Shown here: in pieces, positions 17,218 through 58,231 of the stretch | Numbering within the stretch: position 1 is the stretch's first letter | How the letters are laid out: every line of letters starts with the position of its first letter | Assembly: GCF_963583255.1 (NCBI RefSeq) | Contig: NC_084809.1 | Location: forward strand, 8,009,215-8,073,214 | DNA from: Pyrus communis | Lineage: Eukaryota > Streptophyta > Magnoliopsida > Rosales > Rosaceae | DNA length: 64,000 nucleotides | Direction: 5' to 3' | The notes under the pieces: model-generated | Seen by the model: only the letters and a program-made list of their open reading frames with translations | The model's database searches: none | What the model was told of the DNA's origin: nothing | Made by a program: the position numbers and the translations under genes

Positions 17218-17226
17218 TTGATTAGG

Positions 17227-21063: not shown

Positions 21064-24000
21064 CTAATATCGTTTCCCAAGAATGAGGCCGATGATCGCA
21101 AACACCACAGCCACTCCCACGATGAACTTAACACTCGGCATTGGGGAAGCCTCTGCCTCTCTTTTCGCTGCAGCCGCCTTAATGCTTTCAGCCTACAATT
21201 CGTCAGAGTCAGAAAGAATATTTAAAAAAGTTTGGCTGCAGCCGCCTTAATGCTTTGCAGCCGCCTTAATGCTTTTAGCCGCAAAATAATTACAAAAAAG
21301 TTTGGTGCAAACCTGAGATTGTAGTTTCTGCCATTGAGAAGAATGCTGCTGCATTAAATCTTCAATAGTCGTTTTTGTAGCCTGAAGTTGTTCAACTGAT
21401 TCATCATTCTCAGCAACAGCAGTGGAATATTTCGCTTCAAGGTCACTTTGTTTGGACTCGTATGTAGACACATCTTCTTTAAGCTTTATATTTGCTTCAG
21501 CTAGTTTTCTGCTCTCTTCTTCAAAGTGAGCTGACTTGGTTTGCAGTTCCTTGAGAGAATTCTGCAATAAAGGCTTCTCAACAACCTCAGCCTTGAGATT
21601 TTCAACCTCAGATTTTAAAGCAGCTTCTCCTGTTTTTTGTTCCTTGAGCTGTTCTTCAAGGTTAGATATCGCTAGCTGGAGTTCCTTCTTAGTATTCTGA
21701 TGCACTTCATTAAGCAGGTTGTTCTCATCGGTAAGTGAAGATATCTGTGGCGAACAGATGTAGCTAATAACCATAAAGCAATAGTATTTAGCCGCAAAAT
21801 AATTACAAAAAAGTTTGGTGCAAACCTGAGATTGTAGTTTCTGCCCTTGAGAAGAATGCTGCTGCATTAAATCTTCAATAGTCCTTTTTGCAGCCTGAAG
21901 TTGTTCAACTGATTCATCATTCTCAGCAACAGCAGTGGAATATTTTGCTTCAAGGTCACTTTGTTTGGACTCGTATGTAGACACATCTTCTTTAAGCTTT
22001 ATATTTGCCTCAACTAGTTTTCTGCTCTTTTCTTCAAAGTGAGCTGACTTGGTTTGCAGTTCCTTGAGAGAATTCTGCAATAAAGGCTTCTCAGCAGCCT
22101 CAGCCTTGAGATTTTCAACCTCAGATTTTAAAGTAGCTTCTCCTGCTTTTTGTTCCTTGAGCTGTTCTTCAAGGTTAGATATCGCTAGCTGGAGTTCCTT
22201 CTTAGTATTCTGATGCACTTTATCAAGCAGGTTGTTCTCATCGGTAAGCGAAGATATCTGTGGCGAAGAGATGTAGCTAATAACCATAAAGCAATAGTAT
22301 TTAGCTGCAACATAATTACAAAAAAGTTTGGTGCAAACCTGAGATTGTAGTTTCTGCCCTTGAGAAGAATGTTGTTGCATTAAATCTTCAATAGTCTTTT
22401 TTGCAGCCTGAAGTTTTTCAACTGATTCATCATTCTCAGCAATAGCAGTGGAATATTTTGCTTCAAGGTCACTTTGTTTGGACTCGTATGTAGACACATC
22501 TTCTTTAAGCTTTATATTTGCCTCAACTAGTTTTCTGCTTTCTTCTTCACAGTGAGCTAACTTGTTTTGCAGTTCCTTGAGAGAATTCTGCAATAAAGGC
22601 TTCTCAGCAGCCTCAGCCTTGAGATTTTCAACATCAGATTTTAAAGCAGCTTATCCTGCTTTTTGTTCCTTGAGCTGTTCTTCAAGGTTGGATATCACTA
22701 GCTGGAGTTCCTTCTTAGTATTTTGATGCACTTCATTAAGCTGGCGGTTCTCATCCATAAGCGAAGATATCTGTGGCAAACAGATGTAGCTAATGACCAT
22801 AAAGCAACAATATTTAGCCGCAAAATAATTACAAAAATGTTTGGTGCAAACCTGAGATTGTAGTTTCTGCCCTTGAGAATAATGCTGCTGCGTTAAATCT
22901 TCAATAGTCTTTTTTGCATCCTGAAGTTGTTCAACCGATTTGTGCTTCTCAGCAACGGCAGTGGAATATTTTGCTTCAAGGTCACGTTGTTTGGACTTGG
23001 ATGTAGACACATCTTCTTTAAGCTTTATATTTGCCTCAGCTAGTTTTCTTCTCTCTTCTTCACAGTGAGCTAACTTGTTTTGCAGTTCCTTGAGAGAATT
23101 CTGCAATAAAGGTTTCTCAGCAGCCTCAACCTTGAGATTTTTAACCTCAGATTTTAAAGTAGCTTCTCCTGCTTTTTGTTCCTTGAGCTGTTCTTCAAGG
23201 TTGGATATCACTAGCTGGAGTTCCTTCTTAGTATTTTGATGCACTTCATTAAGCAGGCGGTTCTCATCTATAAGCGAAGATATCTGTGGCAAACAGATGT
23301 AGCTAATGACCATAAAGCAACAATATTTAGCCGCAAAATAATTACAAAAATGTTTGGTGCAAACCTGAGATTGTAGTTTCTGCCCTTGAGAAGAATGCTG
23401 CTGCGTTAAATCTTCAATAGTCATTTCTGCATCCTGAAGTTGTTCAACTGATTTGTGCTTCTCAGCAACGGCAGTGGAATATTTTGCTTCAAGGTCACGT
23501 TGTTTGGACTTGCATGTAGACACATCTTCTTTACGCTTTTTATTTGCCTCAGCTAGTCTTCTGCTCTCTTCTTCACAGTGAGCTAACTTGGTTTGCAGTT
23601 CCTTGAGAGAATTCTGCAATAAAGATTTCTCAGCAGCCTCAGCCTTGAGATTTTTAACCTCAGATTTTAAAGCAGCTTCTCCTGCTTTTTGTTCCTTGAG
23701 CTTTTCTTCAAGGTTGGATATCACTTGGTGGAGTTCCTTCTTAGTATTTTGAAGCACTTCATTAAGCAGGCGGTTCTCATCCATAAGCGAAGATATCTGT
23801 GGCAAATAGATGTAACTAATAACCATAAAGCAACACTATTTAGTCGCAAAATAATTACAAAAATTTTTGGTGCAAACCTGCGATTGTAGTTTCTGCCCTT
23901 GAGAAGAATGCTGCTGCGTTAAATCTTCAATAGTCCTTTCTGCATCCTGAAGTTGTTCAACTGATTTGTGCTTCTCAGCAACGGCAGTGGAATATTTTGC

Positions 24001-24207
24001 TTCAAGGTCAAGTTGTTTGGACTTGCATGTAGACACATCTTCTTTAAGCTTTATATTTGCCTCAGCTAGTTTTCTTCTCTCTTCTTCAATGGTTGTTGAC
24101 TTGGTTTGCAGTTCTTTGAGAGAATTCTGCAATAAAGGTTTCTCAGCAGCCACAGCCTTGAGATTTCTAACCTCATATATTAAAGAAGCTTCTCGTGCTC
24201 TTTGTTG
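21064..24207 (-). pseudogene. Rearranged PICC-type coiled-coil gene, copy P1
   Basis: A 5'-truncated copy of the gene at 53410-58231. From 5' it has a partial repeat exon (23878-24207, cut off at the junction with the next copy), five full 432-bp coiled-coil exons, then a fused 129-bp terminal exon (21064-21192). The terminal exon joins the IKAAAA segment directly to the C-terminal membrane anchor (SVKFIVGVAV...). A TAA at 22651-22653 replaces a conserved Glu codon in the third unit from the 5' end. The sixth intron (before 21313) has lost its 3' half: sequence jumps from it into a second SIKAAA piece. No start codon or N-terminal region is present, so I call it a pseudogene. Transcription is unknown. 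Confidence 0.85.
21313..24207 (-). repeat. 513-bp exon-intron tandem array, P1
   Basis: Six introns start at exact 513-bp steps (donor ends at 21312, 21825, 22338, 22851, 23364 and 23877). Each full unit is a 432-bp exon (144 codons) plus an 81-bp intron, all in phase 0. The exon peptide runs from ISSLxDEN through LKELQTKSAHFEEE to GQKLQSQ. There are no indels between units, so the array formed recently or has been homogenised. Confidence 0.95.
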
Positions 24208-24621
24208 GTTGACCGCGGCCAGCCTTCAGGGATGTGAATTAGTTGGGCAAGTTCCTACAACAAACAATTACAAGTAGGTAGTTTACATGGTAGAAAAATG
24301 AGGCTTTGTAGCTGACAATAAAAAATAGTTGTCGAACGAGTTTTCAATTTTCAAATTTCAAAAAAAAAAGAAGAATAAAAACTGAAAATTAAATACTTAG
24401 CAAACGGCCATGAAGTAATTTCATTTAGGGATCCGACCACATGACTCGAAAACAACTGAGACCGTCATCTTCTTTTCGTATCAACAAACACACAAATACT
24501 TATATTTCCGAAAGCATCTGCAACCCAATATACAAACTAAATACAAACTTGAATAATACATAACCATCTGTGTTTTGCTTTGCAAACAGCCAAGGGGATA
24601 GCAAAAACACAAAAACTTGAT

Positions 24622-27194
24622 CTAGTATCGTTTCTCGAGGATGAGGCCAATGATCGTAGACACCATAGCCACTCCCACGATGAACTTAACACTCGACATT
24701 GGGGAAGCCTCTGCCTCTCTTTTCGATGCAGTCACCTTAATGCTTTCAACCTACAATTCGTCTGAGTCAGAAAGAATATTTAAAAGAAGAATGTGCCCCG
24801 TTCTTTGGCCGCCCAAGAGCTTATATGTGGATTTTTTTTTTCAGGGAAATTGATTTCTACCTCTTTTTCCAGTTGAGCTTCAGTTTTCATCAATTTCTCT
24901 TCGAGATCCTTGAGGCAATTCTGCAACAAAAGTTTCTCAGCAACCTCAGCCTTGAGATTTTCAACTCAGATCTTAAAGCAACTTCTCCTGCTTTTTGTTC
25001 CTTGAGCTGTCCTTCAAGGTTGGATATCACTTGCTGCAGTTCCTTCTTAGTATTTTGATGCACTTCATTAAGCAACATGTTCTCATCTGTAAGCGAAGAT
25101 ATCTGTGGCAAACGAATGTAGCTAATAACCATAAAGCAACAGTATTTAGCCGCAAAATAATTACAAAAAAGTTTGGTGCAAACCTGAGATTCTAGTTTCT
25201 GCCCTTGAGAAGAATGCTGCTGCATTAAATCTTCAATAGTCCTTTTTGCGGCCTGAAGTTGTTCAACTGATTCATCCTTCTCAGCAACAGCAGTGGAATA
25301 TTTTGCTTCAAGGTCACTTTGTTTGGACTCGTATGTAGACACATCTTCTTTAAGCTTTATATTTGCCTCAGCTAGTTTTCTGCTCTCTTCTTCATAGGGA
25401 GCTAACTTAGTTTGCAGTTCCTTGAGAGAATTCTGCAACAAAGTTTTCTCAGCAACCTCAGCCTTGAGATTTTCAACCTCAGATTTTAAAGCAGCTTCTC
25501 CTGCCTTTTGTTCCTTGACCAGTTCTTCAAGGTTAGATATCGCTTGCTGGAGTTCCTTCTTAGTATTTTGATGCACTTCATTAAGCAGGTTGTTCTCATC
25601 CGTAAGCGAAGATATCTGTGGCAAACAGATGTAGCTAATAACCATAAAGAAACAACATTTAGCCGCAAAATAATTACAAAAAAGTTTGGTGCAAACCTGA
25701 GATTGTAGTTTCTGCCCTTGAGAAGAATGCTGCTGCTTTAAATCTTCAATTGTCCTTTTTGCAGCCTGAAGTTGTTCAACTGATTCATCCTTCTCAGCAA
25801 CAGCAGTGGAATATTTTGCTTCAAGGTCACTTTGTTTGGACTCGTATGTAGACACATCTTCTTTAAGCTTGATATTTGCCTCAGCTAGTTTTCTTCTCTC
25901 TTCGTCAAAGTGAGCTGACTTGGTTTGCAGTTCCTTGAGAGAATTCTGCAACAAAGGCTTCTCAGCAGCCTCAACCTTGAGATTGTCAACCTCAGATTTT
26001 AAAGCAGCTTCTCCTGCTTTTTGTTCCTTAGGCTGTTCTTCAAGGTTGAATATCACCTGCTGGAGTTCTTTCTTAGTATTTTGACGCACTTCATTAAGCA
26101 GGCGGTTCTCATCCATAAGCGAAGATATCTGTGGCAAACAAATGCAGCTAATAACCATAAAGCAACAATATTTAGCCGCAAAATAATTACAAAAAAGTTT
26201 GGTGCAAACCTGAGATTGTAGTTTCTGCCCTTGAGAAGAATGCTGCTGCTTTAAATCTTCAATTGTCCTTTTTGCAGCCTGAAGTTGTTCAACTGATTCA
26301 TCGTTCTTAGCAACAGCAGTGGAATATTTTGCTTCAAGGTCACTTTGTTTGGACTCGTATGTAGAGACATCTTCTTTAAGCTTTATATTTGCCTCAGCTA
26401 GTTTTCTGCTCTCATCCATAAGCGAAGATATCTTTGGCAAACAAATGTAGCTAATAACCATAAAGCAACAATATTTAGCCGCAAAATAATTACAAAAAAG
26501 TTTGGTGCAAACCTGAGATTGTAGTTTCTGCCATTGAGAAGAATGCTGCTGCTTTAAATCTTCAATTGTCCTTTTTGCAGCCTGAAGTTGTTCAACTGAT
26601 TCATCCTTCTCAGCAACAGCAGTGGAATATTTTGCTTCAAGGTCACTTTGTTTGGACTCGTATGTAGACACATCTTCTTTAAGCTTTATATTTGCCTCAA
26701 CTAGTTTTCTGCTCTCTTCTTCACAGTGAGCTGACTTGGTTTGCAGTTCCTTGAGAGAATTCTGCAATAAAGGCTTCTCAGTAACCTCAGCCTTGAGATT
26801 TTTAACCTCAGATTTTAAAGCATCTTCTCTTGTTTTTTGTTCCTTGAGCTGTTCTTCAAGGTTAGATATCGCTTGCTGGAGTTCCTTCTTAGTATTTTCA
26901 TACACTTCATAATTATTCGTAGGCGTAGATTCCTGTGGCAAACAGATGTAGCTAATAACCATAAAGCAACAATATTTAGCCACAAAATAATTACAAAAAA
27001 GTTTGGTGCAAACCACTGACCTGTTGTCCCATTAGCTTCCAAATCTCTCTGACTGAATGTTTCAATGGCTTCTTGCAACTTCGTTTCAGCTTCCACAATG
27101 CGGGCTTCAGAAGTAGAATGAAGTTCTAAGGCTCTAGAGTGCTTATCTGTTAATTTTTCAACACTGCTCTTGTGCAAAGGCTTTGAACTGCATC
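24622..27194 (-). pseudogene. Rearranged PICC-type coiled-coil gene, copy P2
   Basis: From 5': an exon starting at 27194 that matches the LHKSSVEELTDKHSRAL region of the intact gene, a break after EAN, then amplified coiled-coil exons, and the fused 129-bp terminal exon (24622-24750) with the tail anchor. One unit is internally shortened (303-bp spacing between introns at 26204 and 26507) and the next is 501 bp; both still keep the frame. A one-base deletion near 24965 shifts the last coiled-coil exon and ends it before the anchor. The 5' junction intron has mismatched phases. A golgin-like exon lies upstream. Probably a pseudogene, though most of it is open. Confidence 0.82.
25103..27013 (-). 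repeat. 513-bp exon-intron tandem array, P2
   Basis: Introns of 81 bp with donor ends at 25183, 25696, 26209, 26512 and 27013 give spacings of 513, 513, 303 and 501 bp. All spacings are multiples of three. The short unit fuses LMDE directly to SRKLAEAN, deleting 210 bp of the exon. Confidence 0.92.
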
Positions 27195-27320
27195 CTAACA
27201 GCATGTGTAAAAACAAGGAAGAGGATGCACCAACTCATTAGTGGGTAAAGTCTTTTGGCAGCGTCCCGACTCCAAACCAAAACAAAAATAAAAAGATGCA
27301 GGACAATTCGAAGACAATAC

Positions 27321-28750: not shown

Positions 28751-28906
28751 ATACCTCTGAAAAACCAACAACCTCTCAAAAACCAAGCTTGAAAGCACAA
28801 AAACAAAGCCTTCAATCTTTCTGTGGATAATGTCCACAAAGCGAAACAATTAACGAAGTAATCAACCAAAACCTGACGGACAAACCCGAAAACACAAAAA
28901 CTTGAT

Positions 28907-29468
28907 CTAGTATCGTTTTCCAAGAATGAGGCCGATGATCACAGACACCACAGCCACTCCCACGATGAACTTAACGCTTGTCATTGGGGAAGCCGCAGTT
29001 GTATGTGTATGGATATTTGCAGATGATGAGGTTTGAGCAGGTGTTGCTTCTGACTTCTTCTTGCTCTTCCTTTTCGATGGAGTTGAAATGGTTGATCCAA
29101 TGTCCCTGGATTTCACTTCCAGTCCGGCTACACTGCCTCCATCACCCTGCAACACGATCATTTAAACATAAGTAAATTTAATCTCCCGCTCGAATTCTTG
29201 TAAGTTAAAAGCCTTGTGCAAGCTGAAACCCTTTTGGTATGGTTTAATGTTTTCATTTCCCCGAGTTGTTTTCGACAATTAAGTCCAAAAAATTGACATC
29301 TACTGAGAGCTTAAGATTACGTAACTAGCGTATGCTGTTTTCGGAATTTCTACTGTGGTGGTAACTATAAAGTGAGTTGGAAACAGAAATAAACATACCC
29401 TTTCTGTTACTTTGGTATCTGCCAGCTGCACTTTCTGCTCGAGCTCTTTGACTTGCTTATCTAGAAGA
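28907..29468 (-). pseudogene. PICC-type gene 3'-end fragment, un-fused form
   Basis: Carries the normal 240-bp last exon (28907-29146; GDGGSVAGLEVKSRD, a basic SKRKSKKK block, then the tail anchor) and part of the preceding exon (29399-29468; LLDKQVKELEQKVQLADT). It then breaks into repeated leader sequence at GAAGAGTG. It is nearly identical by eye to 53410-53970, unlike the fused terminal exons of P1-P4, so it was copied separately from the intact gene. Confidence 0.85.
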
Positions 29469-29643
29469 GTGTTTATTACAATATAACCAACCGATTGCAA
29501 ATGAGAGAGGGAAAAGATCTTTATGCAAGGTATTTCGAAGACTACTTAATTCTAAAGCTATCACTGACATGGCAATTGCCTACGTGGCATGTATATCCAA
29601 TATCCCCCCTCAATCATTAATGGGATAGTCCAGATTAAGATCA
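29469..29643. repeat. Second copy of the LTR-like leader piece
   Basis: Repeats about 28207-28383 (GTGTTTATTACAATATAACC through ATTAAGATCAG) almost exactly, joined directly to the broken coiled-coil exon at 29468. The join has a few bases of shared AGAG. Confidence 0.8.
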
Positions 29644-30006
29644 GCGGCTTAATGATCTTGTTTTCGTTCATTACAACCTCAGACTAAAACACAAGTGGAA
29701 ATCATAGGTTCTGTTGATTTGTATTTCCAATGTTCTTTGGTCCAAGAAAACAGATGTTTTGCTAATCAACTGTCTTGTAGGGTTCATAAGCACAAAGAAC
29801 AGGAGTACGCGGATCCTATATCATTTGACCGCGACAGCATTGCCGAAGAGTGTGTAGCAGAGATGGAGATGCACCAAGAAGACACTGAAAATCCAATACA
29901 GCATTCTTTTGGAAGCAACAACAAACTGGGATCGGACTCATTTCTATCTCACTAAAGTTGAACGCAGATATTACAGTTGTCTCCCTCCCTTCACTAGTAC
30001 TACAAG
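29644..30006 (+). pseudogene. hAT 3' fragment plus segment X (copy 2)
   Basis: Repeats 28384-28750: hAT exon 2 end, intron 2 and exon 3 to about 29895, then segment X to 30006. At 30007 it runs straight into the middle of hAT exon 1 of the next copy. Confidence 0.85.
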
Positions 30007-31588: not shown

Positions 31589-32576
31589 ACGAATGGTTTC
31601 TTTAGAATGCATTGTTATTTTGTGTCGCATGGTTTCTTTTTAACAGGCCTAGTACCGGTAAAGTAATAGTTAGTTGTTTGAAGGGCAGTTATGATCTTTG
31701 AGATCGGCATAATTCATTTTTTCGTTTTTGAGATCTGAAATTAGTAGAAGTGGTCATGAGTTTCTCTACCGTCAATTATTTTGGTTATTCCGTAAAAATT
31801 TTCTATTAAATTTGGACTAAAATTAGAAAAATACTCTCAATTAATAAACATGGGCCAAAACGATTAGACAAAAATTAAGGGTATTTTTGTCATTTTATCC
31901 CCTTTCGATTAGGTTGCCACCTTTTTCCTTCTTATATTGTGAAACCCCTCCTGACTTCTCCATCACTTACCTCTCTCTATATCTCTTTCATTCACACACA
32001 CACACACACACACAAAAACTGTTGAGGTTGTTGCTTCGGATGGTGTTCTCCCGATTTGAAACCAGTTGGTTCCGTAGTTTTAGAATTCTGCTGATCACAA
32101 GGACTCCATCTCCATCATTGCACATGGGAATATAGAAAGTAAAGAGGAAAAGGGAAGCCGCGGGTTCTTGCTTTAGTTTATTTCTTGTGCGCTCAACCAT
32201 CTCCTGGTCAAGCTTTGGATGAGCTTCCAGTGTTGAGTTGTCACAAGTAGGTTTTTTTAGTCATAGCTAGATAGCCAAGATAGACGTCCGTCTCCTCGAT
32301 CAAATTCACCAGTATCCTGGTTGGAAAATGAAGAAGTAATCGAAGTGACAAATGGTGATGGTTGCGGAAACCGGAGAAAAAGTCGGTTACCTTTTGGATC
32401 ATAGAATGAATAAGTAGAATGAATAAGGAGAGGCCTGTTGATGACCGAGCCACTCTTATATTACTCCTTGTCTTACTACCCCTTGTCACTTAAAGGGCAA
32501 AGTCGCTGAAGCGAGTCTAAAGGCCAAAGAGTGATCTTTGAATGCTACTACGCATCTTTACTATTAGTATAGTGTA

Positions 32577-32861
32577 TTTAAGATATCATATCGCCCAGGG
32601 GAGTGATCCTTATATGTATATTCTCATCCCTACCTAGCACGAGGCCTTTTGGGAGCTCACTGGCTTCGGGTTCCGTAGGAACTCTGAAGTTAAGCGAGTT
32701 CGCGAGAGAGCAATCCCAGGATGGGTGACCCACTGAAAAGTTCTCGTGTGAGTTCCCAAAAACAAAACCGTGAGGGCGTGGTCGGGGCCCAAAGTAGACA
32801 ATATCGTGCTACGGTGGAGTCGAGCCCGGGATATGGCGGGGGCCCAGGCCAAGATGTGATA
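32577..32861 (+). mobile_element. Cassandra-type solo LTR, duplicated copy
   Basis: Counterpart of 15826-16116 with the same GTGTA flanks (32572-32576 and 32862-32866). The terminal TG has mutated to TT, and a few bases of the 5S-like part are missing. The identical flanks show that it was copied with the block and did not insert independently. Confidence 0.88.
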
Positions 32862-32967
32862 GTGTAAGGTAGGTTTCCTTATTCTAACGGAGATTTTTCA
32901 CGGAATGAACAAAGTGATTATGATGGACAATCTCATGCACATTTCTATTAATTTTAAATCTTAAAGG

Positions 32968-33430
32968 CCAAAATGAGAGCACTTCCAGTGTAGGAAGGTC
33001 CCCCATGGCAATTGGCAATTGAAAATATTGAAATGTGGTGTAAGGTGAGAGAAAATGGTAAGGTATTTATAAAAAATAAAAAAAATTATAATTAAAATTT
33101 TTTTTTCTTCTGATTTTTAATTAGTTTTAAAATTTTTATTAACTTAATTAATTTGGACCGTCGGATTACAAAAAATTTGAAATCCAACAGTCCAAAATGA
33201 GACATGTGGCCCACCCAAACATTTCTGATTTTTTTTCTTTTTCTAAATTTTTTTAAAACCGAACAAACTGGATTGTTGATCTGGAAATCAAACGGTCTAG
33301 ATTCAAAGTGATTGACTGGGGCTGACACGCGGGCCCTACCGCCTGAAATCTTGTCAGTAATGCACCCCCATGCGCAAGTGTTATGCACGCGCCTGACGCA
33401 AATTTTTTTATAACCTGACTGACGTTAGCC
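32968..33430 (+). mobile_element. MITE-like element, duplicated copy
   Basis: Counterpart of 16227-16690 within block A copy 2. Same AGAGCACTTCCAGTGTAG start and AT-rich body; right end uncertain. Confidence 0.45.
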
Positions 33431-33972
33431 TTGCATCACAAAGCCCTTGGACGCTCGGACCTTGGACTCCCGTCTCCCCTTTCCCACGGGCTCCCCCTTC
33501 ACCCAACTGCCCGAATAAGCTGGAACTAGTTTGAGTGGGGATGGGTTTGCTTTTGTTCCCTATCCACCAGGCTAAAGAGCATGCTGGATTTGCTCTGAGA
33601 AGTTATAACAGTCAAATCCCATTTTGGCTAAAAGAACAAAAAAAAAATTCACCGGTTTGACAAACTGGTTGACCTTTTTTCTCAACACAAAAATCCATCT
33701 AAAGCCCGCACGGACGCTCGTTTCTCTCTCCCAAACAAACCACTCCCCCCCTCCTCTCTCTCTCTCTCTCTCTGTGTTCCCAAAATCCTCCAAAGGCTGA
33801 GAGAAATCACCAGAGACAAGTAAGTCATCTTCTTCCCACTCTTCTCCTTCGAATTCTTTCTGGAAAATGCAAAATCTTCACCACTACATATTAAATTCTC
33901 AGAAAATTTTCGACAATATTCACAGGCTAGTAATTTGATTGATTAATTGATTGATTATTTTAGTTGATTAAG

Positions 33973-36900
33973 ATGATATCTTTGGCGGGTTTCGAGCCCG
34001 TAGCTGTTTCTCCTCAGAAACAAGACCCGGCATGGAAACACTGCCAACTTTTCATGAAAGACCAACCCAATGGGGTTAGAGTTGAGTTGAAAAAGTGTAT
34101 ATATTGCGGCAAGTTGTTTCAGGGTGGTGGGATTACTCGGCTTAAATCCCACCTTGCCGGTCGGAAGGGCAATGGCCTTACCTGTGATCAGGCCCCGCTG
34201 GATGTTAGAATCAATGTTGCAGAGTTTGGATGATGGGATTGCAGCGTTTAGGCAGAGGAAGAGTCGAATTGTTGCTAACCCGCATTGTAGTATTAGCGAA
34301 ATTGACGGTTCATTGGGCGAAAATGGAGAGTATAAATTGGTTGTAGGACACGATTCGAATGCGGTGGTGAATGATGAGGAGGCTGGTGGGATGAGTGGGA
34401 ATGGAGGAATTAGGTTAAGTGATAATTTGACGAATGTGCCCCTTGAAGTAGATAATTCTTACAGGAGTAATGCTCAGCAGGGATTAATTGGAGTACCCAA
34501 ATTGGATTTTTCGGTAGATGAAGAGGAAGATGGTGGGACAAGTGTTGATAGAAGAGAACGGCAGAGGGGTAGACCTTCAGGTGGTGCTACCTGTTCTGGT
34601 TCAGTTCATGCCGGTGTTACGAAATTGAGTAGTGTTTCAGCTCCTTTTCCTATTTCAGTAGGCAATGCTTTTCCCAATTCAAATTTATCGCAAAACAAAG
34701 AAGTTGGCATCAAACTGAATTTTTCAGTAGATCAGGAAGATGCTGGATTGAGTATTGATAGAAGAGTAAGGCGGAGGGGTAGACCTTCTAAAGCAGCAAC
34801 TGGTTCAGTTAATGCTGTTACGAAATTGAGTAATGCTTCACCTCCTGTTCCTATTACATTAGGTACTACTTTTCCCAATTCAAATTTGTTGGAAAATGAA
34901 GACGTTGGCGTAAGTAATACAAATGTGAGTGTGAAGAAGAGGGTAAGGGAAGAAAATGCTTTGGGGGCTGCGAATGATGGAACCATCGGCAATGATTACC
35001 AGGTAAAAAGGTTGAGCATTGAACAAATACATATGGCAATTGGTCGGTTTTTGTATGAAATTCAGGCTCCCCTGGATGCAGTGAAGAACTCTGTTTATTT
35101 CCAGCCAATGATTGACGCAATTGCCTCTGGGGGAAAGGAGACTGTGGCACCCTCATATGATGACATTCGGGGTTGGATGTTGAAGAATGCAGTTGAAGAG
35201 ATGAAGAGTGAAATTCAACAACACAAGGAAACTGGGGCAAGGACAGGTTGTTCTCTTCTAGTCAACCAATGGAATTCTGAAAAGGGTAGAACTTTGCTAA
35301 ATTTTGCAGTGTACTCTCCTGAAGGAACAATCTATTTGAAATCTGTGGATGCTTCTTACTTTATTTTTTCCCCAGATGCTTTGTTTGCATTTTTCAAGGA
35401 AGTGGTGGAAGAAATTGGAGTGGGACATGTTTTGCAAGTCATTACGAATACTGAAGAGCAATTTTCTGTTGTTGGGAAGAAGTTGATGGATACGTTCCCT
35501 ACCCTGTACTGGTCTCCCTGTTCCACTGCTTGCATAGATTCGATGCTCGAGGATTTCGGAAAAGTTGACTGGATAAATTCTGTAATTGAACATGCTAGAT
35601 CTATTACAAGATTTATCTACAAACACGTTGTCATTTTGAACATGATGAGAAGGTATACGTTTGGGAATGACATTGTTAGGCTGGGAGTATCTAGGTTTGC
35701 AACAAACTTTATGACGTTGAAACAAATGGCTGACCTTAAATATAATTTGCAGTCGATGGTTACTTCAAACGAGTGGACGGGCTGCCCCTTTTCTAAAACA
35801 CCAGAAGGATCGGCAGTGTTAGATATATTCAGTAATCAGTCATTTTGGTCTTCGTGCATTTTGATCACCCGTTTAACAAATCCGCTCTTGCGAGTTTTGA
35901 GAATTGTTGGTAGCCAGAAGAGGCCAGCGATGGGATATGTTTTTGCAGGGATGTATCGAGCAAAAGAAACAATCAAAATAGAACTTGTCAAGAAAGAAGA
36001 ATATAAGGTGTACTGGAACATTATAGATCACAGATGGAAAAAATTGTGGGATTTTCCCCTTCACGCGGCAGGATTTTACCTTAATCCCAAGTTCTTTTAT
36101 AGCTTCAAAGGAGACATGCATAATGAAATTGTGTCGAGGATGTTTGACTGCATAGAGAGATTGGTTCCTGATATAAAAGTCCAAGATGAAGTAATCAAAG
36201 AGATCAACATGTACAAAAATGCTGTTGGAGATTTGGGGAGGAATTTGGCAGTCCGAGCAAGGGACAATCTGCGTCCTGGTGAGAATAGTTCATTAGAATG
36301 CATTGTTATTTTGTGTCACATGGTTTCTTTAGTTACTTGGCTATACATGTAGACGAAAGGTAATTAAGCCATATTTTAACTCAGTTAACTTTTATGTAAT
36401 AGAATGATAGATATGATAAATTGCATAAAATATACCCTGACCATCTAATTTATTTATTTATTTTTAAAATTCGGTACGAGGGCTCCTATTTTTAGGATAT
36501 GCTGCAGAGAGTTTGGATGTTCTTGCATCTTTTGGCTCATTTCTTTGAACTCTCTGTTTGTCTTAGCTGAATGGTGGTCGACATATGGTGGTGGTTGCCC
36601 AAACCTTGCACGCTTGGCAATTCGTATTCTCAGTCAAACTTGCAGCTTAGTTCCGTGTCAGGAGAATCAGATTCCTTTCGAACAGTTGCACAAGACAAGG
36701 AACAGCGTAGAACAACAGCGGCTTAATGATCTTGTTTTCCTTCAATACAACCTCAAACTAAAACAGAAGTCAGTGGAAACCATAGGTTCTGTTGATTTGT
36801 ATTCCCAATGTTCTTTGGTCAAAGAAAACAGATGTTTTGCTAATCAACTGTCTTATAGGGTTCACACGCACAAAGAACAGAAGTACGTGGATCCTATATC

Positions 36901-37201
36901 ATTTGACCGCAACAGCATTGCCGAAGAGTGGGTAGCAGAGATGGAGATGCACCAAGAAGACACTGAAAATCCTGATTGGATGTCACTTGATCCCCCCTCT
37001 GAGAACTTGAGGCTTTTAGAACTTTCGGTTGATGAAGTTGAAGAATTGGGTTCAGGTAACTAAGTTTGTATGGTTTGTAATTTATCGTCGAAGATATAAT
37101 CTTTTCTACATCTTGAGTTAAACTGGACAGTTGGTCAATGTACAGGGTATGATGACAATGAAATTTTGAACGGATTGAAAGTGGTTAAAGAAGAATGTTA
37201 A
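33973..37201 (+). pseudogene. hAT-derived gene copy H3, frameshifted
   Basis: Near-complete copy of 17227-20457. Equivalent exons are 33973-36278, 36567-36768, 36859-37055 and 37146-37201. A 2-bp deletion at about 34212 (ATCGCAATG became ATCAATG) ends the BED-finger frame at 34233. An ATG created in place at 34214 could restart translation without the finger and would splice in phase to exons 2-4 (about 840 residues). The intron 2 donor changed from GTAAGT to GTCAGT, and that intron is open, so read-through would also be coding. It could be a finger-less paralogue; pseudogene is my first call. Confidence 0.82.
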
Positions 37202-37320
37202 ACACAGCGCTGTGAGCCGGCGGGACAGAATGCAAAGACAACATCTTTATGAGTTCACCACACCACCGCCACTTTCTTCAAGTACCTACGGGAAGCAAGG
37301 CACTTAGCAAACTTGCATGT

Positions 37321-37443
37321 CTAGAGATACTGCTCGGGCCAATTATATTCTTTCCCTGGCATTACTGCAGAGTGACGGAAATTAGAAGGAAAAATATGTG
37401 ACCGCGGCCAGCCTTCAGGGATGTGAATTGGTTGGGCAAGTTC
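37321..37443 (-). pseudogene. Orphan terminal exon, unidentified (copy 2)
   Basis: Same 123-bp exon as 20578-20700 with an intact TTGTTGCAG acceptor and a stop. The peptide starts ELAQPIHIPEGW and ends NWPEQYL. It is part of the duplicated flank and its family is unknown. Confidence 0.5.
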
Positions 37444-37806
37444 CTGCAACAAACAATTACAAGTAGGTAGTTTACATGGTAGAAAAATGGGGCTTTGTAG
37501 CTGACTTTTCAAAAATAGTTGCAGAACGAGTTTTCAGTTTTCAATTTTCAAAAAGAAATATAAAAACTGAAAATTAAATACTTATCAAACGGCCCTAAAG
37601 TAATTTCATTTTGGGATCCGACCATATGACTCGAAAACAACTGAGACCGTCCTCTTCTTTTCGTATCAACAAACGCACAAATTCTTATATTTCCGAAAGC
37701 ATCTGCAACCTAATATACAAACTAAATGCAAACTTGAATAATACATAACCATCTGTGTTTTGCTTTGCAAACAGCCAAGGGGATAGCAAAAACACAAAAA
37801 CTTGAT

Positions 37807-40800: not shown

Positions 40801-41674
40801 ACAATTATCTGTGGCAAACAGATGTAGCTAATAACCATAAGGCGACAATATTTAACCGCAAAATAATTACAAAAAAGTTTAGTGCAAACCACTGGCAACA
40901 GAAATGCCATTAGCTTCCAAATCTCTCTGACTGAATGTTTCAATGGCTTATTGCAACTTTGTCTCAGCTTCCACAATGCGGGCTTCGGAAGCAAAATGAA
41001 GTTCTAAGGCTCTCGAGTGCTTATCTGTTAATTCTTCAACACTGCTCTTGTGCAAAGGCTTTGAACTGCATCGTAACAACATGTGTAAAAACAAGGAAGA
41101 GGATGCACCAAATCATTAGTGGGTAAAGTCTTTTGTTCCTTGAGCTGTTCTTCAAGGTTAGATATCGCCAGCTGGAGTTCCTTCTTAGTATTCTGATGCA
41201 CTTCATTAAGCAGGTTGTTCTCATCGGTAAGCGAAATATCTGTGGCAAACGGATGTAGCTAATAACCATAAAGCAACAGTATTTAGCCGCAAAATAATTA
41301 CAAAAAAGTTTGGTGCAAACCTGAGATTGTAGTTTCTGCCCTTGAGAAGAATGCTGCTGCATTAAATCTTTAATAGCCCTTTTTGCAGCCTGAAGTTGTT
41401 CAACAATTGTCTGTGGCAAACAGATGAAGCTAATAACCATAAGGCGACAATATTTAGCCGCAAAATAATTACAAAAAAGTTTGGTGCAAACCATTGGGCA
41501 CAAAAAATTCATTAGCTTCCAAATCTCTCTGACTGAATGTTTTAATGGCTTCTTGTAACTTCGTCTCAACTTCCACAATGGGGGCTTCGAAAGCAGAATG
41601 AAGTTCTAAGGCTCTCGAGTGCTTATCTGTTAATTCTTCAACACTGCTCTTGTGCAAAGGCTCTGAACTGCATC
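37807..41674 (-). pseudogene. Rearranged PICC-type coiled-coil gene, copy P3
   Basis: Tandem coiled-coil exons plus a fused terminal exon (37807-37935). In this copy the TAG stop after GLILGKRY has become CAG, so the frame runs on about 47 codons to 37666 and the membrane segment is no longer C-terminal. A one-base deletion near 38148 shifts the last coiled-coil exon, a TAG lies at 39594-39596 and a TAA at 40218-40220. The 5' side is doubled: one KSSVEEL exon piece at about 40915-41070 and another at about 41500-41674, with a short repeat unit between. It is multiply broken, hence a pseudogene. A golgin-like exon lies at 41801-41878. Confidence 0.85.
38286..40889 (-). repeat. 513-bp exon-intron tandem array, P3
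   Basis: Donor ends of the 81-bp introns are at 38366, 38879, 39392, 39905, 40418 and 40889, giving four exact 513-bp steps and one of 471 bp. Two further partial introns occur near 41240-41320 and 41411-41491 in the doubled 5' part. Confidence 0.93.
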
Positions 41675-45375: not shown

Positions 45376-46042
45376 AAATTCCCCACCATATACAATATAT
45401 TTAAAACTACTATTTAATCGCCGTTTTTTGGTTTCTGATGACTCCAAATTGAAATTTCTATTTCAAAATGAAGTTCTAAACACAATTCAATAAAGAAACG
45501 TACAATGCCAATGACATCAGATTCACCAAACATGCAAATCCAAACTTTTCGCAACCATATTATCCGCAAAACACCTCAAATAATTACAATTAGTGATTAA
45601 GCATAAGATCAAACCTAAAAAACATTTCAAAACCACATGCAAACCAAATTAACCAATGGAGCATCTTCCATGGAAGAAATGGGAGAGATTAAAAGCTCGA
45701 ATTCGAGAGATTGCCAAACCGAACATCAATGCATCAAAACCACCGCCAGATTAGATTCTTGCTTAGCTATTAAGCTTGGGATGTTTAGTGATTAGTTATA
45801 TATATATTCTTAACTATATTGCATGAATCGCAGAAATATAAATCTTGACAGAAAGGAATAACATGAAAAGCAATCTTGTGTGAGAAGATAGAGCTCAGAA
45901 TCTTTTAGAGAGAGATCTTTATACAAGGTATTTCGAAGCCTACTTAATTCTAAAGCTATCACTACCATGGCAATTGCCTACGTGGCATGTATAACTAATA
46001 TCCCCCCTCAATCATTACTGGGATAGTCCAGAGTAAGATCAG
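45376..46042. other. Leader region copy, split by the LTR-like insertion
   Basis: Continuation of the leader of P3 (counterpart of about 27670-28383), non-coding. It lacks about 40 bp of the GTGTTTATTACAATATAACC segment found in the other copies. Confidence 0.6.
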
Positions 46043-50100: not shown

Positions 50101-50870
50101 GTATTTTGAAGCACTTCATTAAGCAGGCGGTTCTCATCCATAAGCGAAGATATCTGTGGCAAATAGATGTAGCTAATAACCATAAAGCAACACTATTTAG
50201 TCGCAAAATAATTACAAAAAATTTTGGTGCAAACCTGCGATTGTAGTTTCTGCCCTTGAGAAGAATGCTGCTGCGTTAAATCTTCAATAGTCCTTTCTGC
50301 ATCCTGAAGTTGTTCAACTGATTTGTGCTTCTCAGCAACGGCAGTGGAATATTTTGCTTCAAGGTCAAGTTGTTTGGACTTGCATGTAGACACATCTTCT
50401 TTAAGCTTTATATTTGCCTCAGCTAGTTTTCTTCTCTCTTCTTCAATGGTTGCTGACTTGGTTTGCAGTTCTTTGAGAGAATTCTGCAATAAAGGTTTCT
50501 CAGCAGCCACAGCATTGAGATTTCTAACCTCAGATATTAAAGCAGCTTCTCGTGCTCTTTGTTGGTTGAGCTGTTCTTTAAGTTCGGATATCTGTCGCTG
50601 GAGGAGAAAAACTATCTGTGGCAAACAGATGTAGCTAATAACCATAAGGCGATAATATTTAGCCACAAAATAATTACAAAAAAGTTTGGTGCAAACCAGA
50701 AGTGCCATTAGCTTCCAAATCTCTGTGACTGAATGTTTCAATGGCTTCTTGCAACTTCGTCTCAGCTTCCACAATGCGGGCTTCGGAAGCAGAATGAAGT
50801 TCTAAGGCTCTCGAGTGCTTATCTGTTAATTCTTCAACACTGCTCTTGTGCAAAGGCTTTGAACTGCATC
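47108..50870 (-). pseudogene. Rearranged PICC-type coiled-coil gene, copy P4 (longest array)
   Basis: The longest rearranged copy. From 5': a KSSVEELTDKHSRAL exon (from 50870), an intron, an exon starting IVFLLQRQISELKEQ, then six 81-bp introns at exact 513-bp steps, and the fused 129-bp terminal exon (47108-47236) with the tail anchor. Exons and introns are open together for 935 codons (47376-50183), with no nonsense codon. Defects: a one-base deletion near 47450 takes the last coiled-coil exon out of frame before the anchor, and the intron after EANGTSG is phase 1 while the next exon needs phase 0. No start codon is apparent. Unit order matches P1, so P1 and P4 are duplicates of one array. 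Confidence 0.83.
47589..50696 (-). repeat. 513-bp exon-intron tandem array, P4
   Basis: Intron donor ends at 47669, 48182, 48695, 49208, 49721, 50234 and 50696. The first five steps are exactly 513 bp and the last is 462. All introns are 81 bp, phase 0 and free of in-frame stops. Exons show two flavours: YESKQSDLE with ENDESVEQL or EKDESVEQL, and CKSKQRDLE with EKHKSVEQL. Confidence 0.95.
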
Positions 50871-50996
50871 CTAACAGCATGTGTAAAAACAAGGAAGAGG
50901 ATGCACCAACTCATTAGTGGGTAAAGTCTTTTGGCAGCGTCCCGACTCCAAACAAAAACAAAAATAAAAAGATGCAAGACAATTCGAAGACAATAC

Positions 50997-52870: not shown

Positions 52871-52879
52871 AGGACAAAT

Positions 52880-52930
52880 ATGTGATCGCGGCCAGCCTCC
52901 AGTGATGTGGATTGGTTCGGCAAGTTCCTG
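52880..52930 (-). pseudogene. Orphan exon remnant next to the intact coiled-coil gene
   Basis: Only the acceptor side of the orphan exon remains (GCAG acceptor, ELAEPIHI...GWPRSHI), with substitutions and loss of the 3' half. It shows that this exon was already in the downstream flank of the progenitor gene. Confidence 0.5.
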
Positions 52931-53409
52931 CAACAAACAATTACGAGTAGGTAGTTTACATGGTAGAAAAATGGGGCTTTGTAGTTGACAATTAGAAATA
53001 GTTGCCGAACGAGTTTTCAGTTTTCAATTTTTGAAAAAGAAGGATAAAAACTGAAAATGAAATGCTTATCAAACGGCCCTAAACTAATTTCATTTAGGGA
53101 TCCGACCATATGACTCACAAACAACTGAGACCGTCCTCATTTCATATCAACAAACGCATAAATTCTTATATTTTCGAAAGCATCTGCAACCCAATACACA
53201 AACTAAATACAACCTCCAATAACACATAATCATCTGTGTTTTGCTTTGCAAACAATAAATATCCTGACCAACAACCTCTCAAAAACCAAGCTTGAAAGCA
53301 CAAAAACAAAGCCTTCAATCTTTCTGTGGATAATGTCCACAAAGCGAAACAATTAACGAAGTAATCAACCAAAACCTGACGGACAAACCCGAAAACACAA
53401 AAACTTGAT

Positions 53410-56400
53410 CTAGTATCGTTTTCCAAGAATGAGGCCGATGATCGCAGACACCACAGCCACTCCCACGATGAACTTAACGCTTGTCATTGGGGAAGCCGCA
53501 GTTGTATGTGTATGGATATCTGCAGATGATGAGGTTTGAGCAGGTGTTGCTTCTGACTTCTTCTTGCTCTTCCTTTTCGATGGAGTTGAAATGGTTGATC
53601 CAATGTCCCTGGATTTCACTTCCAGTCCAGCTACACTGCCTCCATCACCCTGCAACACGATCATTTAAACATAAGTAAATTTAGTCTCCCGCTCGAATTC
53701 TTGTAAGTTAAAAGCCTTGTGCAAGCTGAAACCCTTTTGGTATGGTTTAATGTTTTCATTTCCCCGAGTTGTTTTCGACAATTAAGTCCAAAAAATTGAC
53801 ATTTACTGAGAGCTTAAGATTACGTAACTAGCGTATGCTGTTTTCGGAATTTCTACTGTGGTGGTAACTATAAAGTGAGTTGGAAACAGAAATAAACATA
53901 CCCTTTCTGTTACTTTGGTATCTGCCAGCTGCACTTTCTGCTCGAGCTCTTTGACTTGCTTATCTAGAAGAGCGATTTCTTTATTCTTAGCTTCAAGTTC
54001 TTCAAGAGAATGCTTCAACGATGCTTCTCGTTCCAGGTCCTTTTGAGAATCTGCTTCCTTCTGTTGAATAGGGAATTCAAACATGAACGTTTTAGCCGGC
54101 ATTAAATTCCTTTTGTAGAGAATTGTCAGCGCACAGTTTAAGTAAAAGAAATCTTGAAATTGATCGGTTCCTAACCTTTTTGGAAACAGTGGCATGAGCA
54201 AGTTGTAACTCGCTCCGGAGTTTTGTGACTTGTTCATTCAATAAATCTCTGTCATGGACCTTATGCGCATGATCGTCCAATTTTGAAGTCAACTCTACCT
54301 CTCTTTCCGCTGCAGCCGCCTTAATGCTTTCAACCTACAATTCGTCTGAGTCAGAAAGAATGTTCAAAAGATGAATGTGCCCCATTCTTTGGCCGCCCAA
54401 GAGCTTATCTGTGTTTTTTTTTTTCATGGAAATTGATATTCTACCTCTTTTTGCAGTTGAGCTTCAGTTTTCAACAATTTCTCTTCGAGTTCCTTGAGAG
54501 AATTCTGCAACGAAGGTTTCTCAGCAACCTCAGCCTTGAGATTTTCAACCTCAGATTTTAAAGCAGCTTCTCCTGCTTTTTCTTCCTTGAGCTGTTCTTC
54601 AAGGTTGGATATCAATTGCTGGAGTTCCCTCTTAGTATTTTGATGCACTTCATTAAGCAGGCTGTTTTCATCCATAACCGAAGATATCTGTGGCAAACGA
54701 ATGTAGCTGATAAGCATAAAGCAACAATATTTAGCCGCAAAATAATTATAAAAAAGTTTGGTGCAAACCTGAGATTGTAGTTTCTGCCCTTCAGAAGAAT
54801 GCTGCTGCGTTAAATCTTCAATGGTCCTTTTTGCAGCCTGAAGTTGTTCAACTGTTTCGTCCTTCTCAACAATGGCAGTGGAGCATTTTGCTTCAAGGTC
54901 ACTTAGTTTGGACTCGTATGTAGACACATCCTCTGTAAGCTTTATATTTGCCTCAGCTAGTTTCCTGCTCTCTTCTTCAAAGTGAGCTGACTTGGTTTGC
55001 AGCTCCTCAACAAAACTCTCCAGATTCTTCAGCTTTGATAGACTTTCTTCTAGCTCTGCATTTCTGGTTTCAGAAACCGCAGATGTTTCTCGAACTTGCT
55101 CTTCATACAATTTTATTTGGCCTTCTAGGGCATTTAGCTTCTCCAGCAAGTCGTTAGCTTCCAAATCCCTCTGACTCAATCTTTCAATGGCTTCTTGCAA
55201 CTTCGTCTCTGCTTCCACAATGCGGGCTTCGGAAGCAGAATGAAGGTCTAAGGCTCTTGAGTGCTTATCTGTTAATTCTTCAACACTGCTCTTGTGCAAA
55301 ACAAGTTCTCTTGTAGTGGCTTCAGTTTCAGATAGAGCAGCATTCAACGATTCCTGCAATTCATCAATCTTGCATTTCAGCTGAACATTCGTCTCAACTA
55401 GCATTTCGTTTTCTGAGAAAGGCTGAGAAGCTTTGTTTTCTGCTTCCAAGATCTGTTTTCTGAGTTCTTCATTGGTACTTTCGGAAGATGCCAATTTAGC
55501 CAAGCTGTTGTCCAGCTCTTCTTTCAACGATGCAGATTTCCCCGCTGCTTCAGCAATATGCTCGTCATAAATCTTCACCTGATCGTCAAGAATCTTTAGT
55601 TTCTCAAGCAGAGAATTTGCCTCGGCATCCCTGTTAGTGAAGCGCTCTATTGTTTCTTGAAGTTTGATCTCTGAATCCCTCACTAGGGTTTCATGTAGCG
55701 CTTCAAGCTCTGATTTCTTTGACATTGTTTCCTCTATTACTTTGCCTTGTTGCTCCAGTTGCTCCTCCGCACATTTGAGTTTCTGTATGACCTCGCCTTC
55801 TCTGATTCCAGCAGTATTCAGATCATTTTCAATGCTTTCCAATTTCTCTTGAGTCATCTTCAATTCTTCTCTTAAGACCTCCACCAATTTTTCTGATTCG
55901 GAAAACTTCTCAGTAAAACTACTCGATGCATCCTCCAACCTTTTCTTCTCTTCTGTGGCAACATTCAAGGCTTCAAACAACTCCCTTCCCTTTTTGTTGG
56001 CCACTTCCAGGTCAACTTCAAGGCTAGATGTTCTCGCTTGGAATGCCTCGAGTTCAGAAGCAAGTTCAGATACCTTGTTAGAGTAATTCCCAGAATCTGC
56101 TTCTGCCTCCTGACATTTCTTTTCCAAACCAGTTATTTGTTCCTCGAGTTCTTGAATTCTGGACTTCTCTGTTTCAAGCATCAACTCCAGCTCGCTCACC
56201 TTTTTACCAGTATCCTCCACTTTGGTATGAGAAATTTGGACCAAATCTTCAAGTTCGAGGCTTCGCTGATGGTGTTCAGTGGCCCGGACCTCATGTTCGG
56301 CACATTTCTCGGAGGCAGTCTTCAGTTCCTCCTGAAGATCTGAATATTGCAAAGTTGACTGGTTTAATGCAGATTCCAGCTGGCCTATCTTCTCTTGGTA

Positions 56401-58231
56401 TTCTTGCACCTGACCAGTCAGCTGTTTCTTTTCTTCCTCGACCTCGCTCAATGCAGTATTGAGTGCAGATAATTTTTGAGAGAGTTCTTCCAGACCACTC
56501 TCAGCAATTCCTCGGTTCAGCTCTACCGCACTTACCTGTTGCTCGAGCTCTCTCAGTTGCGATTTTGCCTCCTCCGCTGCTGCATTTGAAGCTTGAATAA
56601 TTGCTTCAAGTTCAAGATTCTTTTCAGTAGCAGTTCCTGATTCATTATGGAGCTCATCCAGTGACTTCAACTTCTGTTCAAGCTCAGCATTGTTCGACAA
56701 AGATTGAGACAAAAGAGCATCTTTTTGATGAAAATTCTCTTCTGAAAGCTTCAATTTTTCCTCGAGATCACTGCACAGCTCCTTCATCAGCTGCACATTA
56801 CCGGTGAGATCTGCCACAGCTGCTTCCAGAGCTTCTTTTTCTTTGGTTACTATTGCCAAATTCTCCTGTGCAACTACGGACTGTTCTTCATGAGTTTTTC
56901 GTGCGGCTTCAACTAATTCCTTGGCGCTCAATTCCCCCTGTAGCTTCAACTTCATTTCTTCCAATTCAGAAACCTTTGCTTGAAGATCTTCTTTAGTTGA
57001 TGCAAACAGATTTTCAAGAGCGGAAATATCTTCCTTCACTTGAGATTCCGAGGCCTTTTTCAGGCTCAATTCCTCAGTCAGTTCATTTATCAGAGCATCG
57101 TTAGCCGAGAGTTTCTCCTCCAGGTCTGCGCCTTGAGACTTTGATAGAGCCAGCTCTTCTTGGACAGCAGAAAGCTCGGCAGCGGTAGAACTGAGTGCTT
57201 CTTTGACTTTTTCATCTTCGGCAATCTTTTCATACAGGCCCTTGAGTTCTCCTTGTATGGAACCCATCTGATCTTCCATCTCCTTCGCACTCAACCTTGT
57301 TGCTTTGAGCAGTTTCTCGAACTCCAAGGCCCTCTTTGTCTCAGTTTCGGCATGTGAACCACTTTGCTTGTGCAGCTCCTCAAACTTTTGCACCTCGCAG
57401 GCAGAACTCTGCAACTCTTTCTCCAAGTCCTGCATCCTCTTTCTCGAGCTTTCAAGCTCAAGGTTGAGACCGTCAAACGATTCCTTCACCGCGATCAGAT
57501 CCTTGTGCTTTTCTTCTTGAGCTTGCAATGCCTCTTGCAAAACATTGAGCTGCGAACTGTATTTCTCCTCGGCTTCGGTGATTTGCTCTTGCAATTTCTT
57601 ATGACTGAGTTCAAGCTCTTCATACTTCTTTCCACTTTCTCCCAGCTTCTCCTTCATAAGCAAGACCTCATGCTTCAGCTCAGAACTCTCTGATTCCGAA
57701 TGCTTCAACGCACCAGCCAATCTTTCGATTTCAACCTCAAGGTCACTGACCTTCTCCCGCCCTTCTAGCAATTCTCTGCTCAAATTGCTCGAGCTTCTCT
57801 CAATAACAGATACCTTGTCGTCCTCCGCCAATGCTGTTTCAGCAGCATGAGAACCATCCTTCACATCTATCGATTCTCTCTCAACTTTTATGAACTCTCC
57901 ATCAAATGTTGCTTCCTCCTCTTCTTTCCTTCCTTCTTTTTCTACCGGCAGCAATTTCCCATTCGATACCTACATCGAAAACAACATTCAGCATCCATTC
58001 AAATCATGCAAAATCAAATGATCCCACGAAAGGACTTAAACGTTCAGTTGCAAACTAATCCATGAATGACTACTGTAACTTAATTCCGATCACTTCGAAC
58101 AAAACTAGCAAAGAGAAAGGCTTGAATCACAGAACGCAGATCGCGGTTACCTTGATCGCTTCGGCATCTGCAGTCTCGGAATTCTCAGCAACCTTCACCG
58201 TGGTTTCGGAGATCACTTGTGCTTCTTCCAT
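53410..58231 (-). CDS. PICC: Long coiled-coil tail-anchored protein, PICC/PICL family, intact
   Basis: Six exons with GT-AG sites, all phase 0: 58151-58231, 54769-57969, 54445-54687, 54176-54334, 53902-54060 and 53410-53649, giving 1360 residues. The start is the ATG at 58231 (MEEAQVISET). Almost the whole protein is heptad-rich Glu/Lys/Leu coiled coil. The C-terminus has a basic SKRKSKKK block and a single hydrophobic anchor (VKFIVGVAVVSAIIGLIL) before GKRY. Size, the KSRDIGSTISTPSKRKS motif and the tail anchor match plant PICC/PICL proteins (Arabidopsis AT2G32240 and AT1G05320), which are ER-associated and, for PICC, induced by microbial patterns. Automated annotation often calls these myosin-like, but there is no motor domain. 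This copy alone in the window has a start codon and N-terminus. It holds one copy of the segment amplified in P1-P4. Confidence 0.9.
54688..54768 (-). other. Stop-free 81-bp phase-0 intron, progenitor copy
   Basis: Donor CAG|GTTTGCACC and acceptor CCACAG|ATATC. It is 27 codons long with no in-frame stop and would encode VCTKLFYNYFAAKYCC followed by a hydrophobic FMLISYIRLPQ if retained. It is the only such intron in the intact gene and is copied in every unit of the amplified arrays. Confidence 0.9.

Follow-up and report, generated by a model that had tools for sequence, protein, structure and literature searches.

The stretch of DNA analysed here (the window) comprises 64,000 nucleotides of Pyrus communis (NCBI RefSeq assembly GCF_963583255.1, contig NC_084809.1, positions 8,009,215 to 8,073,214 of the forward strand). 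It holds an intact gene for a long coiled-coil protein of the PICC type and, beside it, truncated paralogues in which a 513-bp segment spanning one intron of that gene is repeated in tandem. The features named in the text are collected in Table 1.

The parent gene and its array copies

The parent gene has six exons, with splice sites read by eye. A search with its protein, in which only the 7,988 candidates with the most common words were scored, returned 66 homologues at E<=0.001 with 31-63% identity. Several of these spanned 97-100% of the query, and similarity to plant long coiled-coil PICC homologues runs over the full length. By name and gene number the family is presumably that of At2g32240. 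The parent protein ends in MTSVKFIVGVAVVSAIIGLILGKRY directly before the stop codon, with a best 19-residue hydropathy of 2.48, and a tail anchor is accordingly predicted. In Arabidopsis, PICC and PICL are described in one study as tail-anchored long coiled coils of the endoplasmic reticulum, PICC having a role in defence and in the abscisic acid response; its abstract calls the coil 'expanded in PICC' (PMC3581476).

A preliminary description of this DNA, made from its letters and open reading frames, had pointed to one junction in the intact gene where the end of exon 2, an 81-bp intron and the start of exon 3 lie side by side, and had proposed that this segment was repeated in the copies. 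The junction is single, and most array units match the segment over 518-520 bp. Each unit consists of 231 nt of exon 2, the 81-nt intron and 201 nt of exon 3, 513 nt together, and repetition creates one new exon per unit of 201 + 231 = 432 nt, in phase 0 and encoding 144 residues, just as had been described. The intron occurs 27 times in the window, always on the minus strand (26 full copies and one reduced to 39 bp), in agreement with the earlier count of about 27. Start-to-start spacings are exactly 513 in 16 of 26 cases, and the exceptions within arrays (303, 501, 471, 171 and 462) are all multiples of three; spacings between genes are 1306, 11353, 6178 and 4072. The claim that spacings are mostly 513 and that the exceptions are multiples of three was correct for the values it gave (303, 501, 471 and 462), but it had omitted 171 and also 431, which separates two 5' gene ends in P3 and is not a multiple of three.

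Identity of the units to one 300-nt reference was mostly 91-98%, and 60-84% for cut units. The introns of the 20 tabulated array units all begin with GT and 19 end with AG; that of unit 3.3 (at 39905) ends with AT. The announced fusion of QNSLKEL to QTKSAH is present in the DNA as CTCAAGGAACT/GCAAACC (the slash marks the junction) or close variants, which brings together CTCAAGGAACTC and GTTGAGGAGCTG. The idea that the breakpoint used similar words was right, but the exact common stretch is only CT, within the imperfect pair AGGAACT/AGGAGCT. The 81-bp intron is itself a multiple of three and is free of stops in 19 of 21 translated copies, the parent included; its retention would add 27 mostly hydrophobic residues. 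A membrane segment formed by such read-through was considered and is a weak candidate, with a hydropathy of 1.2-1.4 compared with 2.5 for the anchor.

P4 is a complete array gene. Its exons measure 12 and 381 nt, followed by five consecutive 432-nt phase-0 exons and the last exon, and the five form a tandem exon array in the sense of consecutive exons of one length and phase with similar DNA. P1b holds an in-frame deletion (the 303 spacing), and its first donor would lie 7 nt before the ancestral donor. All 12 introns of P4 and P1b have GT-AG ends, and all internal exon lengths are 0 mod 3. Both open reading frames start from a new ATG, which lies in the short and variable sequence ahead of the first intron, and both close with a basic, frameshifted tail, LKISRLRLLRNFCCRIASRISKRN, in place of the anchor. 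The tail derives from a one-base loss in the terminal unit common to P1b, P3 and P4. This loss (terminal units near 47400, 24900 and 38080) exchanges the route to the anchor for a basic tail with two cysteines. In P1a the terminal exon 3 has been lost, and in the P. communis database model P0069 the last unit runs into exon 4 and the anchor.

P1-P4 resemble the parent only in its 3' flank, in the last part of the final exon, in the array segment and the sequence from there to the beginning of exon 4, and in 147-153 bp of exon 2, as far as position 55300. No parent match was found in P1-P4 5' of 55300 or over 53498-54292; the array copies are therefore not expanded versions of the intact gene. 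About 900 N-terminal codons, including exon 1, are gone, as is the stretch from exon 4 into exon 6, and P4 and P1b thus lack the N-terminal part of PICC. The expansion of a coiled coil by whole spliceable units, as first described, is borne out as a tandem amplification of exon-intron-exon segments, but it took place in truncated, re-started paralogues and not in the intact gene, and splicing is read from sequence and computed models. Nor are all the copies coding expansions: stops and a defective acceptor are present in P3 and one stop in P1a, while P4 and P1b are open throughout. At the array 5' ends (intron starts 27013, 40889, 41491 and 50696) the intron is conserved, but it is preceded by a short stretch that varies from copy to copy. 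The exon that follows is diverged, shortened or (41491) displaced, and all four are in phase from a new ATG, P1b via its alternative donor.

Table 1 Features of the array locus (positions in the window)
Feature	Position	Strand	Remarks
Parent gene	53410..58231	-	Intact; PICC-type long coiled-coil protein with C-terminal membrane anchor (predicted); ATG 58231, stop 53410
Parent exon 2 and following junction	57969-54769	-	Intron 54768-54688; exon 3 starts 54687
Amplified parent segment	54488..55007	-	Exon 2 end, 81-bp intron and exon 3 start
P4	47376..50708	-	Complete array gene, 921 codons; 7/7 introns GT-AG
P4 exons	50708-50697, 50615-50235, 50153-49722, 49640-49209, 49127-48696, 48614-48183, 48101-47670, 47588-47376	-	
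P4 first intron	50616..50696	-	Preceded by a short variable stretch, not by the exon 2 end
P1b	24890..27032	-	Complete array gene, 576 codons; 5/5 introns GT-AG if the first donor is CAG/GTCAGT
P1a	21274..24212	-	Five whole units and truncated ends; one in-frame stop (unit 1a.3)
P1a 3' end	21046..21227	-	In-frame fusion of the exon 4 start with the part of the last exon that encodes the membrane anchor (AESIKAAAAKREAEASPMPSVKFIVGVAVVFAIIGLILGKRY)
P3	38026..40910	-	Array gene in decay; frame from ATG 40910 open for 172 codons; units 3.2 and 3.4 contain stops, and the unit 3.3 acceptor is AT
P3b	41036..41512	-	Another 5' end, lying upstream of P3; frame from ATG 41512 runs for 104 codons to a stop; introns at 41491 and 41320
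Copy of the parent 3' end	28764..29469	-	99.3% copy of 53267-53972; mark of segmental duplication
Duplicated block	31635..37970	.	98.1% duplicate of 14889-21227, with hAT transposase remnants; mostly used as indel control

The four copies follow one another head to tail next to the parent, in the same orientation as it and each with the parent 3' flank (53000-53254). Together with the 99.3% copy of the parent 3' end, this arrangement shows that the cluster grew by tandem and segmental duplication. Three open reading frames of hAT type (DUF659) are duplicated within the cluster (17218-19608, 29858-31588 and 34091-36352). Other open reading frames in the window encode a Copia polyprotein (376-4380, minus strand), a GRAS protein (11558-13114) and ribosomal L27e (7268-7762).

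Array proteins in pear and apple

Of the 40 and 42 proteins in two lists of database matches, the only ones with arrays were from Pyrus communis (P0069), P. x bretschneideri (P0070-P0074) and Malus (P0075, P0076). The parent homologue search returned no named Rosaceae protein, and absence of arrays from other Rosaceae is not readable from that database. The five P. x bretschneideri array proteins are probably encoded on one contig. Two of the three Malus hits are array proteins, two-unit relatives with the same fusion word, and the third, P0077, is of the parent type and has no fusion. By a word count, the database models of the eight array proteins remove the intron in 23 cases and retain it in two at the QSQ junction, once each in P0069 and P0076; this count misses variant junctions, and P0075 additionally reads through its first intron. 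P0070 begins with MAFLLPV and P0073 with MGQQ; in each case the ATG lies in the short variable sequence upstream of the first intron. The start codon assigned to P4 and P1b is nevertheless provisional, as the bretschneideri models P0071 and P0072 begin upstream in the PICC frame instead. The tail LKISRLRLLRNFCCRIASRISKRN is also found at the end of P0073, with similar tails in P0074 and in the Malus proteins P0075 and P0076. In the latter, judged from the protein alone, the one-base loss seems to lie at a slightly different point.

In a tree of the units, the five P1a units are identical, unit for unit, to those of P0069. Units 2, 3 and 4 of P3 cluster, in order, with units from P0071 and P0072 (supports 84-100), unit 1 weakly so (63), and the P1b units group with those of P0073, the P. 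x bretschneideri counterpart. Pyrus units stand together against Malus units with a support of 78. Grouping in order between the two pears indicates that the arrays, and much of their order, predate the split of these pears, and most of the array growth looks to have occurred on the pear side. From these sequence comparisons the arrays are real and young, a small apple and pear gene family derived from the neighbouring PICC-type gene.

Evidence for and against constraint on the array copies

Whether the copies behave as genes or as pseudogenes was assessed from the changes accumulated between units. Three comparisons between arrays, 1a-4, 1b-4 and 3-4, with 63, 43 and 99 substitutions respectively, contained no small insertion or deletion (indel) per 205 substitutions. 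Control duplicates from the same cluster contained 14 per 180 (p = 3e-5 versus the arrays), made up of the 3' flank (3 indels per 25 substitutions), the 5' flank (0 per 40), the copy at 45378 (4 per 39) and the hAT block (7 per 76). Without the hAT block the result was 0 of 205 versus 7 of 104 (p = 6e-4). Only whole units were counted, with edge gaps omitted; because the P4 branch is common to the array comparisons and certain control pairs overlap, all these p values are rough. When changes were simulated forward on the unit tree, with the parent unit as the starting point, 15-17 sites changed to proline or glycine where 4 were observed, and 8-11.5 acquired stops where 3 were observed. Varying core sites were also fewer than simulated (12 versus 18-20). 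None of the P4 or P1b units carries a stop, an outcome with a simulated P of 0.002-0.006 (unscaled). Depletion of indels, of helix-breaking changes and, weakly, of stops is thus a sequence pattern pointing to a protein constrained in length and helix.

Several observations weigh against this reading. Length differences at the array 5' ends (multiples of three), the deletion behind the 303 spacing and the one-base loss in the terminal units fall outside the indel count or are older than it. The introns, for which about three indels were expected, are also free of them, as is the 5' flank control, and a low local indel rate may therefore explain part of the depletion. The simulations overproduce changes, synonymous ones included (about 41 against 35 observed); when they are scaled by the overall ratio, the expectation falls to 11.7 for proline and glycine changes (P = 0.01) and to 7.6 for stops (P = 0.06). 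Relative rates at codon positions 1, 2 and 3 and in the intron were 0.80, 1.13, 1.10 and 0.95, and omega was 0.81-1.02 under three codon models, as for a sequence under no residue constraint. Changes from hydrophobic to polar residues in the core were not depleted (12 observed versus 14.1 simulated, P = 0.36). Purifying selection on the residues found no support in omega, in the codon-position rates or in this unprotected core. Finally, there are the stops in P3 and P1a.

Some of these points also sustain the main rival explanation, that the copies are unexpressed pseudogenes in which a 513-bp repeat turns over by satellite-like unequal crossing over, their open frames reflecting youth and homogenisation. 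Besides an omega near 1, the missing codon-position signal and the exposed core, it is favoured by the loss of the native start and N-terminus, by the loss of the anchor in P1b and P4, and by the stops and broken acceptor in P3 and the stop in P1a. It is harder to reconcile with two complete open reading frames, with fewer indels, proline or glycine changes and stops than in controls or simulations, and with within-array spacing exceptions that are multiples of three without fail. First exons that differ in length and sequence yet stay in phase (P4, P3, P3b, and P1b with the CAG/GTCAGT donor), and a unit order largely preserved between two pear species, also speak against it. A version drawn from the loss of the N-terminus and the altered frame of the terminal unit is weakened by database pear proteins that start at the ATG before the first intron, the same start that opens P4 and P1b. 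Overall the pseudogene explanation is judged unlikely, while keeping an appreciable chance.

Far less room is left for capture and amplification of a gene fragment by a transposon (hAT, Helitron or Pack-MULE) in place of tandem gene duplication. The three hAT-type open reading frames within the cluster would suit such an origin. Four copies standing head to tail beside the parent, in its orientation and each with its 3' flank, would not, and this very low estimate was reached with transposon terminal repeats not searched for. Slighter still is the chance that the intron is a mobile, Introner-like element inserted many times. The four copies at 27013, 40889, 41491 and 50696, with a preceding stretch unlike the exon 2 end and altered exon sequence downstream, are what such an element might leave. 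However, their downstream flanks still resemble exon 3 or exon 2, the other 23 of the 27 copies in the window retain parent exon on at least one side, the 513-bp period covers the whole segment and not the intron alone, and no target-site duplication was seen by eye. An assembly artefact, through collapse or wrong expansion of near-identical repeats (a usual trouble spot), is barely credible, as the units are distinct at many positions, they group in order with units from another species, and two-unit Malus relatives share the fusion word.

Origin of the array and known parallels

Scored simply for a and d positions in 28-residue windows, both breakpoints fall at heptad index 4 (position e), and a fusion between equal heptad positions preserves coiled-coil register as well as frame. 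Register is equal in all windows across the junction at four of the six P4 fusions. Against this, it switches close to the fusion at the other two, where the windows furthest upstream keep the preceding register. The unit length, 144, is 4 mod 7, yet the parent segment itself has compensating shifts. Two heptad-equivalent words may have recombined unequally, or slipped, to give the first duplication, which kept both frame and register. Units would then have been gained and lost by ordinary unequal crossing over between near-identical neighbours, and whole genes multiplied by segmental duplication. If spliced and translated, P4 and P1b would give long rods with no membrane anchor, which could assemble with one another or with the corresponding coil segment of PICC, and selection would keep helix, frame and unit length rather than exact residues.

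Taken as a whole, truncated PICC duplicates in which the 513-bp segment was amplified, with P4 and P1b as spliced, helix- and length-constrained rods, provide the best explanation and one that is probably correct. The P4 and P1b products would most likely be soluble rods, and a P1a-type product, if made, anchored, each able to pair with itself or with the PICC segment. Interference with PICC by the array products, or support of it, is conceivable but on balance doubtful.

An offset scan of 68 proteins (the 66 homologues and two window open reading frames) found internal repeats in nine, with lengths of 193, 84, 143, 84, 147, 116 and 189 residues and, weakly, 53 and 533 (P0039 and P0057). In seven homologues (P0003, P0004, P0005, P0006, P0014, P0016 and P0022) internal tandem duplications lie at differing places, with lengths of 0, 3 or 4 mod 7. 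The 193-residue unit of the Ancistrocladus homologue is present in about five copies. The 143-residue repeat of Sarracenia, nearly equal in length to that of pear, was rejected as the same segment because it lies in the N-terminal part. Judging by these repeats, small in number, PICC-type coils have been lengthened several times by internal duplication, at different places. With the pear unit included, nine of ten such duplications are 0, 3 or 4 mod 7 (P = 0.003), a set picked from coiled-coil lore after the lengths were known and with two of the ten duplications weak. This is in line with a bolder proposal, in which coiled-coil coding sequence acts as its own ruler, the partial homology of heptad-equivalent words allowing repeated unequal exchange in frame and in register, the locus yields a ladder of rods of n x 144 residues by unit number, in-frame exon skipping or intron retention, and the pear family of soluble rods could titrate PICC. 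As a whole this proposal is rather improbable.

Exon arrays and coiled coils built from repeated exons are already known, and the pear array is a variant on these. A literature search of open-licence PMC papers found, among the best-ranked results, no paper on this pear array. Arabidopsis PICC and PICL share with the parent gene the long coiled coil and the C-terminal anchor (PMC3581476); the pear array genes differ from them in lacking the N-terminus and, in P1b and P4, also the anchor. In the chicken BG genes, a coiled-coil tail is encoded by many 21-nt (heptad) exons, and a coiled coil is there too lengthened by whole in-frame exons; the predicted exon number ranges from 13 to 36 across tandem genes, and some introns are in frame and readable when retained (PMC4046983). 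There each exon is one heptad, whereas the pear unit is 144 residues fused from two partial exons around a carried intron, with the single-copy parent still adjacent. The 90-bp leucine-rich repeat exons of Tetrahymena likewise form young tandem arrays, in which the exon/intron units keep one size and one phase; these arrays lie beside transposon sequence and have been ascribed to unequal crossing over (PMC6564038). They differ in protein fold and phase (leucine-rich repeats with phase-2 introns, against a coiled coil in phase 0) and in scale, with tens of thousands of exons against the one locus seen in pear.

In potato, a gene duplication across an exon-intron boundary offers a plant case with inherited splice signals (PMC4974935). 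It is one partial duplication, unlike the pear unit, which carries a whole intron each time and was amplified. Internal tandem repeats in human segmental duplications vary in number between recent paralogues and alter exon/intron structure, with units of about 30 bp on average (PMC2812944). Coiled-coil proteins of the synaptonemal complex are depleted of indels while their residues change fast (PMC8598163), and the pear pattern, with residues free and helix, frame and length held, resembles theirs; these are different proteins with no tandem amplification. Against these systems, what is particular to pear is a large unit cut through two exons, a whole intron in every repeat, a living parent adjacent and a breakpoint true to register. 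Exon birth is young and legible here, as a single-copy parent segment, two-unit apple relatives and pear arrays of up to about six units can be compared directly. The array poses the questions of how a coiled coil grows with no loss of frame or register, whether selection can preserve the length and helix of a protein as its residues drift, and whether repeats that carry an intron serve to produce rods of graded length.

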